A program made the position numbers and the translations under genes. Below, in pieces: positions 1,883 to 44,985 of a stretch of DNA of 50,863 nucleotides. How positions within the stretch are numbered: position 1 is the stretch's first letter; the number at the start of each line of letters is the position of its first letter. This stretch comes from a bacterium (GTDB lineage: Bacteria; Vulcanimicrobiota; Vulcanimicrobiia; Vulcanimicrobiales; SCRA01). The notes under the pieces are model-generated. The model did not search any database and had not been told where the DNA came from. It was given only the letters and a program-made list of their open reading frames with translations. The stretch covers positions 1-50,863 of the forward strand of contig SCRI01000050.1 in the NCBI GenBank assembly GCA_004298675.1. Reading direction: 5' to 3'.

Positions 1883-2749
1883 ATGGCCTTGCGCACCAAC
1901 CGCGATCGTCTGCTCACCGTCGCCATAGCCGGAGAGGTCGCACCTGCCGCGTTCGGCATGAATCCCTACGACATCACCGCGGATGGGCGGGCGATCATCG
2001 TTCCAGGCATGGGAAGCGTGAATCTCAACGTGCGCGTCGGCGATCCGGCGCTAGGCTGGGTTGCGGATCATGTGGAGCCCGCGGTGAGCGCGCGCGCCAA
2101 GGACGACAAGGAGAACGTGGGCTTCTGCCTGCTCTCCTGCGTGGGCAACCGCGCCACGGTGATGAGCGGCGAAGCCAAAGGGGCCACGGGTGTGGTCACC
2201 GGCAAGCACGGCGGCATCGAGCACGTGTTGATCGACTTCCCGGGCGAGGTGCTCGAGCGTCTCGCCGTGGGCGACAAGATCGCGGTGCGCGCCGTCGGAC
2301 AGGGTCTGGCATTGAGCGATCTGCCGCAGGTACGCCTCTTCAACTTGGACCCGGACTTCTTCGAGCGGTTGAATTGCGAGAGCGCGGGAGACCGGCTACG
2401 GGTTCCCGTGGCCAAGATCGTTCCGGCGGCCGTGATGGGCAGCGGGCTCGGGCGCGACAACGTCTATCGCGGCGATTACGACATTCAAATGTTCTCACCG
2501 GACATCGTCGAGCGCCACGAGCTGGCGAATATCAGGCTAGGCGACATCGTCGCAATCATCGACGCCGAGCACTCCTACGGACGTATCTACAAAACGGGTG
2601 CGGTCTCGATCGGCATCGTGGTGCACGGCGCCTCGGCCATTGCGGGTCATGGCCCTGGCGTCTCCTCGCTGATGACCTCAGGAGAGGGCAAGATCGAGCC
2701 GGTGCTCGATCCCAGGGCCAATCTCGCCGACGTGTTGGCGCTGCGCTAG
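1883..2749 (+). CDS. DUF4438 domain-containing protein
   Basis: A 288-residue soluble protein with no signal peptide or membrane segment. It matches what I recall of the DUF4438 family: an N-terminal RTNRDRLLTVAIAGEV, then NPYDITADG and NVRVGDPALGWVADHVEPG-type text, a central GSGLGRDNVYRGDYD, and a glycine-rich GIVVHGASAIAGHGPG before SLMTS near the C-terminus. The family has no biochemical function that I know of. The ATG at 1883 has GAGG seven bases upstream and begins at the conserved region. Its stop overlaps the stop of the convergent alkyltransferase gene within a CTAG. The frame is open further upstream, but only across the queD antisense. Confidence 0.72.
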   Translation: MALRTNRDRLLTVAIAGEVAPAAFGMNPYDITADGRAIIVPGMGSVNLNVRVGDPALGWVADHVEPAVSARAKDDKENVGFCLLSCVGNRATVMSGEAKGATGVVTGKHGGIEHVLIDFPGEVLERLAVGDKIAVRAVGQGLALSDLPQVRLFNLDPDFFERLNCESAGDRLRVPVAKIVPAAVMGSGLGRDNVYRGDYDIQMFSPDIVERHELANIRLGDIVAIIDAEHSYGRIYKTGAVSIGIVVHGASAIAGHGPGVSSLMTSGEGKIEPVLDPRANLADVLALR

Positions 2750-3279
2750 ACGTGCGCGACGTCGAGCAGGCCGAGCCAGCCTAGTTGACCGCTCTCCAAG
2801 GCTAACAACGCCGCTTTGATGTCGAGGCCGCCGCCGAAGCCGGTGAGGGCGCCCGTGCTGCCGACAACGCGGTGGCAGGGCACGACGATGGGGATGGGGT
2901 TCGCGCCGTTGGCCAGCCCCACCGCGCGCGAGGCGTTGGGCTGGCCTAGGCTCTTGGCGATGGTGCCGTAGGTGGTGGTGGTCCCGTAGGGGATATGCCG
3001 CAGCTCTTCCCACACGCGCAACTGGAACGGCGTCCCAGCGGGGGCGAGCGTGAGATCGAACGCACGGCGCTGGCCGGCGAAGTACTCGTCGAGTTGGCGG
3101 GCTGCGGTGCCGGTGCGCGCCGCGTCGCGCGCGAGCGTCACCCCGGCGCGTTCCATGCGTTCGAAGAAACGTCCGGCGTGCGCGCGCGCGAACTCGATCT
3201 CGGTGAGGGCGCCGGCAGCGTCGGCGGCAAGGATGAGCGGACCGATCGGTGAGTCGAGCGTGGCGATGTAGCGCGTCAT
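2746..3279 (-). CDS. ogt: O6-alkylguanine-DNA alkyltransferase (stand-alone)
   Basis: This 177-residue protein is a suicide DNA-repair enzyme that moves the alkyl group from O6-alkylguanine to its own cysteine. The active site VVPCHRVVG places the acceptor at Cys135. The Asn-hinge/arginine-finger segment GQPNASRAVG and the ending GALTGFGGGLDIKAALL are standard. The N-terminal domain (residues 1-75) is the usual ribonuclease-like fold, and there is no Ada-type zinc domain. It is the first of two alkyltransferase domains in the window; the other is fused to an anti-sigma module at 43359-44129. Its stop shares bases with the convergent DUF4438 stop. The 2-oxoacid dehydrogenase operon lies upstream on the same strand. 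Confidence 0.93.
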   Translation of the reverse strand: MTRYIATLDSPIGPLILAADAAGALTEIEFARAHAGRFFERMERAGVTLARDAARTGTAARQLDEYFAGQRRAFDLTLAPAGTPFQLRVWEELRHIPYGTTTTYGTIAKSLGQPNASRAVGLANGANPIPIVVPCHRVVGSTGALTGFGGGLDIKAALLALESGQLGWLGLLDVAHV

Positions 3280-22054: not shown

Positions 22055-23316
22055 GTCTCGAGTATAGACCGCTTTCACGCAGGACGCTGGTCAGGGGAGC
22101 GGCGGCAGCCGCTGCCGCCGCCGGCTTTCCCGCCGTCATACGCGCGCGCGGCGAGGCCGCCGAGACGCTCAAGCTCGGCATGGTGGCCGAGCTTACCGGC
22201 GTCTACGCGGGTCTTGCCAGTCATCAGTTAGCGGGTGCACGGATGGCCGTTGAGGCGTGGAACGCACGCGGCGGCGTAGGCGGCAAACGTATCGAGCTGG
22301 TGGTGGAGGACGACCAGAATAATCCCGGTGTTGCCGTGCAGAAGGCACGCAAGCTGATCAACGAGGACAAGGTGGCGGCGCTGTGCGGCAGTGTCAACAG
22401 TTCCGTCGTGCTCGCCGTCAGCAACGCCGCCGCCGAGAACAAGATGGTCTATATCTCCTGCGGCAGCGCCGACTCGATCACCGGCGCCAACTGTCACTGG
22501 ACGACCTTTCGCGTGGGCCACAGCACCTGGATGCTAACCCACGCTAGCGGTTATAGTTTCGCGCAGAAGTTCGGCAAGAAGTGGTATGCGATCACGCCGG
22601 ATTACGCCTACGGCCACGCGCTCGTCGACGGCTACAAGGACGTCTTGGCCAAGGTGGGCGGCGAGCTGGTCGGCGACGATCTGGTGCCGCTGGGCACCTC
22701 CGACTTCAGCCCCTATCTGACGAAGATCGCCGCGGCCAAGCCCGACGTGATTCTCGCGCTCGTGCAGGGCGCCGACTACGTCAACATGCTCAAGCAGGCC
22801 GGCTCGTTTGGACTGATCGCGAAGTTTCCGATCTGCACGCCGCAGCTTTCGTTGGAGTACGTCTGGACGCTACCCGAGGAGGCTCGCGTCGGATATGGCG
22901 CGACGGAGTGGTACTACCACAGCGACTTAGTGTTCCCGCAGAGCGACACCGCGGCCGCGGACTTCGTCAAGGCCACGCGCAAGAGCTCCGGCAAGCCTCC
23001 GACCAACTACAACACGTTCGGGTACATCATGCTCGATCGTTTGATCTGGTCGATCCACAAGGCGGGCAACACCGACGCCGTCAAGATGGCGCACTCGCTG
23101 GAGGGTGCGAAGTTCACCGGGTTCTTCCCCGGCGAGGCCTACTTCCGCGCCGTCGATCACCAGTTGATGTGGCCCGTGTGGGTTGCGAAGGTGCGCGCCA
23201 AGCCGCCTGTGAGCGATCCGTACGACGTCTTCGACGTGATCGATCGCCAGCCGGCTGAGAAGATCGAACAGCCGGTGGAGGAGAAGGCGAAGGTCTGCCA
23301 CCTCGGCTACCCCTAG
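22051..23316 (+). CDS. Tat-exported periplasmic substrate-binding protein, branched-chain amino acid type
   Basis: The 421-residue protein begins with a twin-arginine signal (LSRRTLVRGAAAAAAAAGFP), then LKLGMVAELTGVYAG, the opening of type-I periplasmic ligand-binding proteins of the LivK/UrtA class. LAGARMAVEAWNARGGVGG and VVEDDQNNPGVAV are standard for the fold. It is the last gene of the tightly overlapping set IclR-nucleotidyltransferase-M14-binding protein. No permease or ATPase gene for this ABC system is present in the window, so it either serves distant membrane components or acts as an orphan. Ligand unknown; amides, amino acids or hydroxyacids are possible. Confidence 0.88.
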   Translation: MSLEYRPLSRRTLVRGAAAAAAAAGFPAVIRARGEAAETLKLGMVAELTGVYAGLASHQLAGARMAVEAWNARGGVGGKRIELVVEDDQNNPGVAVQKARKLINEDKVAALCGSVNSSVVLAVSNAAAENKMVYISCGSADSITGANCHWTTFRVGHSTWMLTHASGYSFAQKFGKKWYAITPDYAYGHALVDGYKDVLAKVGGELVGDDLVPLGTSDFSPYLTKIAAAKPDVILALVQGADYVNMLKQAGSFGLIAKFPICTPQLSLEYVWTLPEEARVGYGATEWYYHSDLVFPQSDTAAADFVKATRKSSGKPPTNYNTFGYIMLDRLIWSIHKAGNTDAVKMAHSLEGAKFTGFFPGEAYFRAVDHQLMWPVWVAKVRAKPPVSDPYDVFDVIDRQPAEKIEQPVEEKAKVCHLGYP

Positions 23317-40724: not shown

Positions 40725-42398
40725 CTAGCGCCTGCGCTTGGTGGCGGGCTTTTTGGGCGCGGCCTTTTTGGCCGGAGCCGCCTTCTTGGCCGGAGCGGCC
40801 TTCTTGGCGGGTGCGGCCTTCTTGGCGGGTGCGGCCTTCTTGACAGCCGTAGATTTCTTGGCGGGTGTCGCCTTCTTGGCCGGAGCGGCTTTCTTGGTGG
40901 CCGTTGATTTTTTGGCCGGAGCCGCCTTCTTAGCCGGAGCGGCCTTCTTGGCGGGTGCCGCTTTCTTGACAGCCGTGGGCTTCTTGGCAGATGCGGCTCT
41001 CTTAGCCGGAGCGGCCTTCTTGGCCGGAGCGGCCTTCTTGGCGGGTGCGGCTTTTTTCGCGGGTGCCGCTTTCTTGGCCGGGGCGGCTTTTTTCGCGGGC
41101 GCCGCCTTCTTGGCCGGGGCCACCTTTTTGACGGGTGCCGCCTTCTTGGCCGGGGCGGCCTTGGCGGCGGGCGCATGCTCTTCTAGCCCCTGCCCGCGCT
41201 CGCCGGCGGCCTTGGCCCGCTCTCTAGCCTTTGGCCGCGTCGGTTTGGTGGCCGGGGGACGGGCCGGCGTGGTACGCGCCGCGCGAGTGCCGCGGCGGCT
41301 GCCCCGCGTGGGTTCGCCGGCGGTGATCGGCTGCTCCGGCTCCTCAGGCAGCCCCAACTCTTTGCGTCCCAAGCCGCTGATGCTCGATCCGGGCAGCGGG
41401 GTCACCGGCGGTGCCGCCTGCGCAATCAGTTCCTCGGTGGCGCGCAGTGCGACGCGTGCCAAGCGTCCCGCCACGGGAAACACGACCTCGTTGATCTCCA
41501 ATTCGTCGAGGATCGCAAGCACGCGTTCGAAGGCCGCGCCTTGATGGATAGGGCTGTGGGCATCCGAGCCGATGGCGATCCCCACGTCCGCCGCCTTGGC
41601 CTTGCGCAGCAAGCGTTTGTTGGCGGTGAGATAGGCCTCGATCAGCGCGGGATCGTCTGCGTCGCGATAGAGTACGCGGGTGTTGAACTCGATCGCTAGG
41701 CCGTGCTCCTTGCACGCCGCGATCACGCGATCCTCATACTCCTCGAGTTTGGCCTGAGTGGGCCAGAAGCCGAACTTCGCAGGCACGTAAAAGTGGCCCA
41801 AGATGTTACCCGGTAATTTCTCGATGGCCTCGATGACGTTGGCGACGTAGAGCTCCCACGTCTGGTCGACGCCGACGTGAAGATAGAGATCCTTGAACTC
41901 CGGATTGTCGAAGGGCCACAGCCAGCCCTCACCGTGCTCCGGATGCGTAATCGGTAGAAAATGCACGCTGCGGATCAACCCGTCGGGGCGCATCGCCTCA
42001 ACGATATTCTGCGCGTCGGGACGATTGCGCGGATCGTTGTCCACTTCGGCTCCGATAGAGAATCGGAAGCCGCGGCGCAGTGCCGCTCCCACGGCCTCCG
42101 CCACCGGATAGGAGACGTTCGCGGTCTCCGCCGCGCCGTAGTGGTCGCCCGCGAGGGCGAGCTTGAGCGCACGCCGGCAGAGATTGACTGCTGCCGGGTC
42201 CTCGAACGTGAGGTAGTTCATATGGTCCGCGACCATGAGAAACCGCGGTGAGCCCCGCCGCGAGGCGTGATAGAACCACTGGAAGAGCATCCGCGCCGTA
42301 TAGGCGATCGGACGCTCCTCGGCATATGGTCGATGTTCGCCCTTTGCGTGCCCGTGCGTATCTGGGATCGCGGCGAGTCTAAGGTCTGCCGTCGTCAC
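40725..42398 (-). CDS. PHP-domain phosphoesterase with histone-H1-like Lys/Ala tail
   Basis: A 557-residue protein in two parts. Residues 1 to about 320 form a PHP-domain metal-dependent phosphoesterase of the histidinol-phosphatase type: PDTHGHAKGEH near the start, VADHMNYLTF near 58, SIGAEVDND, LGHFYVPAKF, IEFNTRVLYRDADDP and GSDAHSPIHQGAAF carry the metal ligands. Residues 340 to 400 are a basic, disordered linker. From about 405 to the end run roughly 24 hexapeptides of AAPAKK type ending KKPATKRRR. Such tails occur in histone H1-like and mycobacterial HU proteins and bind DNA; here the tail sits on an enzyme. The reading frame is open throughout, with no frameshift visible. Confidence 0.8.
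   Translation of the reverse strand: MTTADLRLAAIPDTHGHAKGEHRPYAEERPIAYTARMLFQWFYHASRRGSPRFLMVADHMNYLTFEDPAAVNLCRRALKLALAGDHYGAAETANVSYPVAEAVGAALRRGFRFSIGAEVDNDPRNRPDAQNIVEAMRPDGLIRSVHFLPITHPEHGEGWLWPFDNPEFKDLYLHVGVDQTWELYVANVIEAIEKLPGNILGHFYVPAKFGFWPTQAKLEEYEDRVIAACKEHGLAIEFNTRVLYRDADDPALIEAYLTANKRLLRKAKAADVGIAIGSDAHSPIHQGAAFERVLAILDELEINEVVFPVAGRLARVALRATEELIAQAAPPVTPLPGSSISGLGRKELGLPEEPEQPITAGEPTRGSRRGTRAARTTPARPPATKPTRPKARERAKAAGERGQGLEEHAPAAKAAPAKKAAPVKKVAPAKKAAPAKKAAPAKKAAPAKKAAPAKKAAPAKKAAPAKRAASAKKPTAVKKAAPAKKAAPAKKAAPAKKSTATKKAAPAKKATPAKKSTAVKKAAPAKKAAPAKKAAPAKKAAPAKKAAPKKPATKRRR
40745..41165. repeat. 18-bp tandem repeat array encoding the AAPAKK tail
   Basis: About 23 tandem 18-base units, read on the minus strand as AAPAKK and variants (AAPVKK, VAPAKK, STATKK, PTAVKK). 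Many neighbouring units are almost identical at DNA level, suggesting expansion by slippage or unequal exchange. On the plus strand they read as a hydrophobic FLAGAA repeat, which I take to be an artefact. Confidence 0.9.
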
Positions 42399-42438: not shown

Positions 42439-43137
42439 CTAGCGACCGCGCGGTATCCACAGTTCGCCTTTTGTACGCTTTGGCTCCTCCGCCCCCTTTG
42501 ATGCCTCCTCTAGGCGGCGACGCTCCGTGGCGGCGATGACCTCGAGTGTGAGCTCGATGCCACGCTTCATCGTTTCGAGCGCCATGCTGGGCGTGCGCGC
42601 CGGGGCATGCTCGGCGGCCTGCCCCGGCAAGTACGGGAGATGGATGAAGCCCACGGGAATCGATGCATCGCGTTCGCCGCACCATGCGAGCGTCTCGTAA
42701 AGAGCTTGATTGCAGCAGAACGTGCCGGCGGAGTCCGAGCGATAGCCCGGGACCGAGCCGGCGCGCCAGCGCTCGACGATCTCAGCCGTAGGCAGCGTGG
42801 AGAACAGCGCCGCGGGGCCCTCCGTGCGGACCGGCTCGCCTTTGGCCGTATAGCCTTGGTTATCGGGAACGGCGGACTCGATGACGTTGACCGCGAGACG
42901 CTCCACTGCCAGTGCAGAGTTGCCGCCGGCCTGGCCTAGCCCGATCACGGCGGCAACGGTGTCGGCTTCGAGCAGACGCGCCAGACGCGCTTGCAGCGAT
43001 CCGATCTCCACGGGTAACACGTGTCCCACCACCTGTGCCCCGCCGATCGTCTCCCCGTCCAGGGCTCGCGCCACCAACTGCGACGGATTGACCGCCTCTC
43101 CGCCGAATGGTTCGAAGCCGTAAAGCATGATGCGCAT
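42439..43137 (-). CDS. pcp: Pyroglutamyl-peptidase I (pyrrolidone-carboxylate peptidase)
   Basis: A 232-residue cysteine peptidase that removes N-terminal pyroglutamate. It opens YGFEPFGGEAVNPS. The catalytic triad fits the family at constant offset: Glu79 (AVERLAVN), Cys142 (SDSAGTFCCNQALY) and His166 (GFIHLPYLP). Length is a little over the usual 200-215 because of a basic C-terminal extension. The start at 43137 has only GAAGAA upstream. Its leader contains a hairpin followed by a T-run at 43166-43194, so transcription from upstream genes would stop before it and pcp likely has its own promoter. Confidence 0.92.
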   Translation of the reverse strand: MRIMLYGFEPFGGEAVNPSQLVARALDGETIGGAQVVGHVLPVEIGSLQARLARLLEADTVAAVIGLGQAGGNSALAVERLAVNVIESAVPDNQGYTAKGEPVRTEGPAALFSTLPTAEIVERWRAGSVPGYRSDSAGTFCCNQALYETLAWCGERDASIPVGFIHLPYLPGQAAEHAPARTPSMALETMKRGIELTLEVIAATERRRLEEASKGAEEPKRTKGELWIPRGR

Positions 43138-43358: not shown

Positions 43359-44129
43359 TCAGGAGGTTCGCATGCCGGCGCGAGTCTCCTCTTGCTGGTA
43401 GCCTTCGAGGTCGAGCAGACGCCGCTTCAGCTCAACGCCGTACACGTAGCGATGGAGACGACCCTTGCAGTCGATCACGCGGTGACACGGGATCAGCAGC
43501 GGGATGGGATTGTTGGCAAGTGCCTGGCCGACAGCGCGCGCCGCGTTGGGACGCCCCACCTCGCTTGCCAGCCAGCCGTAGGAGCGGACCTCGCCTCTGG
43601 GGATACGCGCGGCAGCCTCGAAGACCGCGCGTTCGAACTCGGTAAGGTACGCGAGATCGAGCGGAACGCTGACGTCGCTGCGGCCGCTGAAGAAGGCTTC
43701 GAGTCCCTGGCGCACCCAGGCCGGTACGTGCTGTTGCAGCGGCAGCGCCACGGCGTGGATCCGCCGCTCGAGTGCGGCGACGAGCTCGTGCAACTCCTCG
43801 CCGCGGTCGACGCGGATCGCGGTGATGCCGGCATCGCGATAGGCTACGAGTAGGCGCCCGATCGGTGCCTGGTAGATCGCGACGGACACGCTCTCATGGA
43901 CGTGCAGCTGCTCGCACTGCTCGCGGATATGCGCCATGATGCGCGGCACGAGCGACTGCGGCGGCGGGGCGACGGGAAGACACGAGAGGCAGTAGGCCAC
44001 GCCTTCGAATTCCGCGTATGCTGCCTGGCAGTCGGCGCAGGCGCGCAAGTGGGCCAGCACGTGCTCGCGGCGCGGCTCGGCTCCGGAGCGCATGTCGTCC
44101 CAGCAGGCGACGACCTCACGACAGCGCAT
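43359..44129 (-). CDS. Zinc anti-sigma factor fused to O6-alkylguanine-DNA alkyltransferase
   Basis: A 256-residue soluble two-part protein. Residues 1 to about 50 carry the zinc anti-sigma (zf-HC2) signature C3-x23-H27-x3-C31-x2-C34 (MRCREVVACWDD; HLRACADC). A linker with two more close cysteines (YCLSC, 46-50) leads to residues 78-245, a complete Ogt/MGMT: the N-terminal lobe (VSVAIYQAPIGRLLVAY), the DNA-binding SYGWLASEVGRPNAARAVG, the active site LLIPCHRVID with acceptor Cys215, and GVELKRRLLDLEG. The usual membrane helix of this class is absent. The ATG at 44129 overlaps the sigma-factor gene by 14 bases. I infer an alkylation-sensing anti-sigma factor; an ordinary repair enzyme with a vestigial zinc module is the alternative. 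Confidence 0.85.
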   Translation of the reverse strand: MRCREVVACWDDMRSGAEPRREHVLAHLRACADCQAAYAEFEGVAYCLSCLPVAPPPQSLVPRIMAHIREQCEQLHVHESVSVAIYQAPIGRLLVAYRDAGITAIRVDRGEELHELVAALERRIHAVALPLQQHVPAWVRQGLEAFFSGRSDVSVPLDLAYLTEFERAVFEAAARIPRGEVRSYGWLASEVGRPNAARAVGQALANNPIPLLIPCHRVIDCKGRLHRYVYGVELKRRLLDLEGYQQEETRAGMRTS

Positions 44130-44778
44130 GAGCGGCGTCTCCTTCGTGGACCAGGCGGCCGACTTGCGGCCCGAGCACCCGGCGTAGAATCCGCACGGCG
44201 CGGTGGACGTGGCTCTTGACGGTTCCAATCGGCTGTTGAAGGATCTCGGCGATCTCGGGATGCGAGCGGCCCTCGATGAAGCGCAGGGTCGCCGCGGCGC
44301 GCAGGTGGACCGGGAGATCGAGTAGAGCCCGCTCGACCATGGCCATGTCGTCCGAGCGCTCCACCACTTGCTCGGGCGTCTCCGAAGGGGCGTTGTTCTG
44401 ATGGATCAAGGCATCGGGATCGGCCAGTGCGTCCAGTGCGACGCTGGTCGGCTTCTTCGAGCGCAGGCGGTTGCGCGTCACGTTGAGCGTGATCGTGTAG
44501 AGCCAAGGCTGGAGCTTCAGCTCGGTCCGGTGCTCGGCCGGCATCTTGGCAAGCGCCCGGTAGGCGCGCACGAAGGCGTCTTGCACGATCTCCTCGGCAT
44601 CCTCGCGGTTGCCCGTCATGCGCAACGCAAAGCCGAAGAGGCGCCGCTCGTAGTCCTCCACGATGCGCTCGAAGTGCTCGGCGCTCGGGATCGAATTCCG
44701 CGGTACCTCGGGGCGCGGGACCTTCGCCACCAGGATCTCCTCTAGAGCCGGTGGGGCCTCCAGCAATAGTGCGGTCAT
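44116..44778 (-). CDS. ECF-type RNA polymerase sigma factor
   Basis: A 220-residue sigma-70-family protein of the extracytoplasmic-function class. Region 2 is at about 35-105: IVEDYERRLFGFALRMTG, DAEEIVQDAFVRAYRAL and WLYTITLNVTRNRLR. An acidic linker (110-143) leads to region 4 at about 145-200, with the helix-turn-helix LQQPIGTVKSHVHRAVRILRR. A 30-residue N-terminal extension is not typical. It overlaps the anti-sigma-alkyltransferase gene by 14 bases, the standard sigma/anti-sigma arrangement, so the two are translationally coupled. The start has no clear ribosome-binding site. The upstream 240-base gap is shared with a divergent gene. Confidence 0.92.
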   Translation of the reverse strand: MTALLLEAPPALEEILVAKVPRPEVPRNSIPSAEHFERIVEDYERRLFGFALRMTGNREDAEEIVQDAFVRAYRALAKMPAEHRTELKLQPWLYTITLNVTRNRLRSKKPTSVALDALADPDALIHQNNAPSETPEQVVERSDDMAMVERALLDLPVHLRAAATLRFIEGRSHPEIAEILQQPIGTVKSHVHRAVRILRRVLGPQVGRLVHEGDAAHALS

Positions 44779-44985
44779 CGCTTATTCACAACCCCAACGG
44801 CGTCGCTGGAGTTTCGCCCGCGCGCGACAGGGCCCCCTCCGGCGGCGCCGAAATTGGCACCCATGGCTCTGCCAGCCGGAGCTCCCCGCAACCACAGTCA
44901 GGCGCGTGTGTGAGCGCCGGCGTTGGGCGTGGCCAGTCGACGTACGACCGCACTGCCGTTATGGCGTGCGGTCGCGTGTTTTCGT

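Follow-up and report, generated by a model that had tools for sequence, protein, structure and literature searches.

An ECF sigma factor gene overlapping an anti-sigma/DNA alkyltransferase fusion gene in Candidatus Eremiobacterota: a candidate self-inducing repair switch

Ada, the protein of the adaptive response in E. coli, is a suicide alkyl acceptor that controls its own gene, and ChrR is a soluble anti-sigma factor with a fused sensor domain. In class I anti-sigma domains, helix 1 binds sigma4 and helix 4 binds sigma2; fused sensor domains are common, and many soluble zinc anti-sigma factors respond to redox state (PMC7406223). Alkyltransferases that have been alkylated are destabilised and degraded (PMC4605297). 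Among the extracytoplasmic function (ECF) sigma factors, group ECF122 is described as neighbouring 6-O-methylguanine DNA methyltransferases, with no anti-sigma factor and with its mechanism unknown, an example being Cellulomonas WP_057211282.1 (review PMC8999054). Here we analyzed a stretch of 50,863 nucleotides (contig SCRI01000050.1 of assembly GCA_004298675.1, order Vulcanimicrobiales; hereafter the window), in which an ECF sigma factor gene overlaps a gene that joins a zinc anti-sigma domain to a complete DNA alkyltransferase. On balance we favour, with modest confidence, the reading that the two genes form a self-inducing repair switch, in which the unreacted fusion protein would hold the sigma factor and alkylation of its Cys215 would release it.

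The sigma factor gene and the fusion gene

The sigma protein matched TIGR02937 (E 1e-26) and contains regions 2 and 4 only, as ECF sigma factors do; its orthologues across the order are 65-94% identical. The open reading frames, their lengths (220 amino acids for the sigma factor and 256 for the fusion) and their 14-bp overlap agreed with the original prediction, and so did the zinc signature C3-x23-H27-x3-C31-x2-C34 and the alkyltransferase with its PCHR site at Cys215 (Table 1). The fusion has no transmembrane segment, again as predicted: the maximum hydropathy over 19 residues was 1.07, and the predicted helices were all assigned to two folds. AlphaFold2, run on 40 aligned orthologues (mean predicted local distance difference test score 83.6), predicted four helices at the N terminus and, behind them, the alkyltransferase fold.

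The N-terminal helices span residues 4-14, 21-30, 32-49 and 60-75, and C3, W10, H27, C31 and C34 are invariant in 90/90 orthologues. A search of all PDB chains with a profile of this domain alone gave only two plausible solved relatives, RsiW (E 4.5e-5) and RslA (E 0.007), and both are class I anti-sigma factors; the next match, at E 0.44, was unrelated. The second of these chains, 3hug_B, is one that we take to be RslA, the PDB entry itself reading only 'probable conserved membrane protein'. Pfam zf-HC2 gave no match to the window copy and matched 24 of the 40 orthologues (best E 2.9e-5). We also compared the 30 most similar sigma genes outside the order, from 23 genomes, by inspection of strand and position. 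A gene with an HxxxCxxC motif lies on the same strand just downstream of 23 of them, and an alkyltransferase lies next door to none (0/30). Because these relatives usually have an HxxxCxxC gene and never an adjoining alkyltransferase, the alkyltransferase is probably an added sensor or output module, and the fusion appears to occupy the slot held elsewhere by an ordinary zinc anti-sigma gene. Taken together, the zinc signature, the fold and homology, and the neighbouring ECF gene support the assignment of residues 1-76 to the class I zinc anti-sigma domains; the profile matches and the positional comparison thus bear out what had been read from the signature.

The same residues raise the main rival to alkylation sensing. 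The zinc ligands are of the kind found in RsrA, and an additional pair, C47-x2-C50 (window 43980-43991, minus strand), has both cysteines in 73/90 orthologues. The fusion could therefore be an RsrA-type redox or electrophile sensor, whose zinc cysteines respond to oxidation, zinc loss or an electrophile while the alkyltransferase is a co-expressed output and not the trigger. The canonical ligands with their upstream cysteine are universal (90/90), the C47/C50 pair could be redox active, and redox sensing is frequent among soluble zinc anti-sigma factors (PMC7406223). However, the additional pair is not universal, and a zinc motif of this kind can serve structure, as it does in RsiW, the best PDB relative. 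Furthermore, a covalent fusion is unnecessary for a mere output enzyme, and an independent ECF/alkyltransferase pairing, described below, exists without this zinc domain. We regard redox sensing as unlikely, though it is the strongest of the rivals.

The remainder of the fusion is an alkyltransferase. Profile alignments to Ada-C and human MGMT begin at residues 79-83, and the best PDB matches of the model in Foldseek were Ogt and Ada-C. P214-C215-H216-R217-V218, Y228 and E242 are invariant in 90/90 orthologues, and Y184, R198 and N207 in all 40 that were aligned. With the PCHR site and the Tyr/Arg/Asn/Glu set all kept, the enzyme is complete and predicted to be catalytically intact. The alternative of an ordinary Ogt whose N-terminal extension is spurious was rejected. 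Canonical Ada was also rejected, since Pfam finds neither an Ada_Zn domain nor an AraC-type helix-turn-helix (HTH) in the protein. The invariance of R198, the arginine of the DNA-binding helix, would also fit a switch by lesion binding, in which the alkyltransferase domain carries the sigma factor on DNA and, once damaged DNA is bound, the complex changes so that the sigma factor is released or positioned, whether alkyl transfer follows or not. Alkyltransferase-like proteins signal in such a way, through lesion binding without chemistry. Unlike in those proteins, the catalytic cysteine, which a reversible signal could do without, is never replaced here (90/90); we consider this explanation improbable.

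Table 1. Features of the locus and of related genes in the same genome (window positions, except for the second pair, which is numbered within its own locus)
Feature	Position	Strand	Evidence or remark
ECF sigma factor, sigma2 + sigma4, 220 amino acids	44116..44778	-	Pfam Sigma70_r2 E 2.1e-15, r4_2 E 2.2e-12
Anti-sigma/alkyltransferase fusion, 256 amino acids, stop codon included	43359..44129	-	Open reading frame and Pfam
Sigma/fusion gene overlap, 14 bp	44116..44129	-	Identical 14-bp overlap in 73/89 loci
Class I zinc anti-sigma domain, residues 1-76	43902..44129	-	AlphaFold2 helices, PDB profile matches, zf-HC2 in 24/40 members
Alkyltransferase N-terminal subdomain, residues 80-160	43650..43892	-	Weak Methyltransf_1N; PDB profile; Foldseek
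Alkyltransferase DNA-binding and active-site domain, residues 161-245	43395..43649	-	DNA_binding_1 E 5.5e-30
Catalytic Cys215 codon	43485..43487	-	Cys in 90/90 orthologues
Predicted ECF promoter, GCGAAACT...GGGGTT	44790..44817	-	11 nt before sigma start codon
Stand-alone Ogt-type alkyltransferase, separate from the operon	2746..3279	-	DNA_binding_1 E 5.4e-35
Second pair, same genome, locus L003 (G000:C8)	alkyltransferase-Ada_Zn 1300-2079, ECF start near 2671	-	

Conservation of the pair and its promoter

Near relatives are metagenome-assembled genomes (MAGs) of Candidatus Eremiobacterota. Of the 103 genomes of the order, 93 carry an orthologue of the fusion at full length, among them all 58 with at least 90% completeness; the ten genomes without it are incomplete assemblies, several of which hold fragments. 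We extracted 90 loci, in 89 of which the sigma neighbourhood could be read. Wherever the contig reaches that far (89/89), the fusion gene is immediately preceded by the sigma gene in the same orientation, and the 16 loci without the 14-bp overlap all fall between -11 and +8. The original prediction had asked whether an ECF gene always stands beside the fusion, and had named loss of the zinc residues, of Cys215 or the hinge, or of the sigma partner as what would speak against it; these checks were all made at the level of sequence, and none went against the idea. Chance adjacency of the two genes was rejected on the same counts. Elsewhere in the phylum, the matches in 46 genomes were plain alkyltransferases and none was the fusion, and the sigma orthologue was missing from the 23 genomes searched (best score 104 bits). 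Because both proteins are missing there, the two genes appear to be an order-specific unit; within the order they form a fixed operon. A wider scan of the genome collection for the fusion used short patterns from one sequence only and does not prove its absence elsewhere.

Upstream of the sigma gene is a predicted promoter with the -35 element GCGAAACT, in which GAAAC occupies positions 44811-44815, and the -10 element GGGGTT at 44790-44795. It is the only match to the pattern in the 50.9-kb window, where 0.7 was expected. A second promoter-like site (22536-22562) was dismissed, lying antisense inside a coding gene. Across the order, GAAACY followed after 18 or 19 nt by GTY precedes the sigma gene in 70/85 loci, compared with a mean of 1.1 and a maximum of 5 in shuffled sequences. 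The element usually lies 9-12 nt ahead of the start codon, suggesting a transcript with almost no leader. Because an ECF-type promoter is conserved in front of the sigma gene, the operon is probably self-inducing through its own sigma factor.

Further targets were sought with two patterns. In 13 genomes with a GTGTT -10 element, the GTGTT variant gave 21 sites vs 4 in the reversed control; all 13 operons were matched, and in 7 of the 13 the operon was the only site in the genome. In 10 genomes, TGAAACY-N17/18-GGTC gave 54 sites vs 26 in the reversed control (table sum), and among the promoter-like targets none but the operon itself was conserved between genera. Neither search, in the 10 and the 13 genomes, found a further conserved target of the fusion-linked sigma factor. 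The stand-alone ogt gene of the window has no promoter of this type in its upstream sequence and lies directly behind another gene of the same strand. That the operon is often the only conserved match would fit a homeostatic loop with stoichiometric feedback only, in which the fusion keeps the repair protein at a set level without sensing alkylation and the sigma factor is switched otherwise, for example through a different promoter of the operon. But such a self-limiting loop leaves the need for a suicide enzyme as partner unexplained, and loss of the inhibitor by alkylation follows from the known instability of alkylated proteins; there is thus little to recommend this explanation.

In one genome with the HC2-type pair, TGAAACC-N15-GTGTT precedes an EamA-like transporter, named by eye (L285, G043:C91:3421-3447); this is a single case, possibly due to chance. 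Downstream of the fusion in the window is a gene for a pyroglutamyl peptidase (Peptidase_C15, 42439-43137, minus strand), and a Peptidase_C15-like family lies downstream of the pair in about 42 relatives, with a median gap of 214 nt. Farther along, at 40725-42398 (minus strand), a PHP-domain protein ends in a tail of about 160 residues, largely Lys-Ala-Pro repeats, that resembles a histone H1 tail.

A possible alkylation switch and a second pair

In the switch that we favour, the unreacted fusion would bind and hold the sigma factor. Transfer of an alkyl group from DNA onto Cys215 would use up the fusion protein and remove the holder, and the freed sigma factor would make more sigma factor and more repair protein until unreacted fusion again exceeded the lesions. 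The separate parts of this scheme differ in strength. The data strongly suggest that the N-terminal domain sequesters the sigma factor and that the latter drives its own operon through the conserved promoter. It is fairly probable that the unreacted alkyltransferase would be a competent inhibitor of the sigma factor, and release by alkylation of Cys215 is plausible; the fusion would be lost on alkylation because alkylated alkyltransferases are known to be unstable (PMC4605297). The interpretation given in the original prediction is thus partly supported, by the anti-sigma domain, the intact catalytic residues, the exceptionless ECF pairing and a promoter implying self-induction, whereas the binding of the two proteins and the release triggered at Cys215 are what we infer from these.

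Several observations weigh against this switch. Conservation of Cys215 is equally expected of a mere repair enzyme, and the ligand set C3/H27/C31/C34, with the additional cysteine pair described above, resembles that of the redox-sensing RsrA. No alkA- or alkB-type target was found for the fusion-linked sigma factor. An AlphaFold2 model of the sigma/fusion complex, made by treating the in-frame gene pair of a relative (L016) as one reading frame with one stop codon read through, was not a confident one (predicted template modelling score 0.51).

The same genome holds a second ECF/alkyltransferase pair, which genus relatives keep as well. Its alkyltransferase protein (259 amino acids) begins with the alkyltransferase part and ends in an Ada zinc domain (PF02805, E 5.6e-9); it has neither an HC2 zinc site nor an AraC domain. 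The pair thus appears to be made of the modules of Ada in permuted order, the HTH being replaced by a sigma factor. In one genome (G001, L008) a third gene, at 2322-3071 (plus strand), lies directly behind the pair and encodes an Oxygenase-NA protein (PF09859, E 4e-75). Pairs of this type were also found in Dormibacterota (L077, L078), an acidimicrobiial MAG (Acidimicrobiia, L081), Nonomuraea (L178), Rubrobacter (L179; WP_051590067.1 / WP_084264190.1) and Streptomyces (L180), and outside the phylum PCHRV and the four Ada-type cysteines are always present.

The promoter of this second type was read by eye as TGNAAC - exactly 16 nt - GTGTT in 9/9 loci (one with AGCAAC, one with GGGTT), roughly 8-12 nt ahead of the sigma start codon. 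In the genus of the window, the pattern gave 12 sites, and the reversed control 0. Three genomes have it at the second operon, 4/4 have it before an EamA transporter gene (TGTAACCGATCGC...GTGTT; L265 at G000:C56:20216-20242, L271, L264 and L266), and in G003 it lies 8 nt before the ATG of a plain ogt gene (L259, G003:C15:11685-11711), whereas the ogt gene of the window lacks it; the other four sites look like chance. Because this second pair has at least one repair gene as a target, the reading of the fusion as an alkylation sensor is strengthened by analogy. In a tree of alkyltransferases, the HC2 clade (100/99) was placed close to the sigma-AdaZn group, the support for this being only modest (88/89); in a sigma tree with genome paralogues the branches were very long, and the sister status of the two sigma types was not settled by it.

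Ada_Zn (PF02805) is present in 34/103 genomes of the order and in 18/58 of the high-quality ones, part of which is the second pair, and is absent from 69/103; in most members the fusion thus appears to be the only alkyltransferase-linked regulator. Rather tentatively, we suggest that there may be two sigma-based alkylation responses, the order-wide fusion of Eremiobacterota and the alkyltransferase-Ada_Zn with ECF pair of Eremiobacterota, Dormibacterota and Actinomycetota, which share the layout TGNAAC-N16/17-GTGTT with almost no leader and would replace Ada by consuming an inhibitor instead of activating a regulator.

Comparison with known systems

We found no description of an anti-sigma/alkyltransferase fusion in the open-access literature, most subscription papers being outside the search. 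The suggestion in the original prediction that a system of this type is new needs a proviso, since ECF122 beside O6-methylguanine methyltransferases is on record. If the proposed switch is true, a suicide DNA-repair enzyme would be its own anti-sigma factor, and its expression would directly read exhausted repair capacity. It would be a second, mechanistically opposite answer to the problem solved by Ada, in bacteria mostly without Ada, and would offer a mechanism for the ECF groups beside alkyltransferases that are listed as 'mechanism unknown'.

The locus resembles ECF122 in having an alkyltransferase gene as the conserved neighbour of an ECF sigma gene, and is unlike it, as judged from the description of ECF122 and not from its sequences, in that this alkyltransferase carries a class I zinc anti-sigma domain; the MGMT-Ada_Zn pair of actinobacteria and of this genome may be ECF122. 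With RsiW, RslA, RsrA and ChrR, the fusion shares the sequence of its N-terminal domain, the zinc signature and the position behind an ECF gene, but it is joined to a complete DNA-repair enzyme and has no membrane segment or known sensor module. It has the complete catalytic set of Ogt and MGMT (Y184, R198, N207, C215-H216, Y228, E242) and, unlike them, an N-terminal anti-sigma domain and an obligatory ECF partner, in a genome that has a separate plain Ogt. Like Ada, to whose C-terminal part its alkyltransferase is homologous, it would be a suicide alkyl acceptor controlling its own gene. The sign would be opposite: methylated Ada activates, whereas the unreacted fusion would inhibit a sigma factor, so that induction would report exhausted repair capacity.
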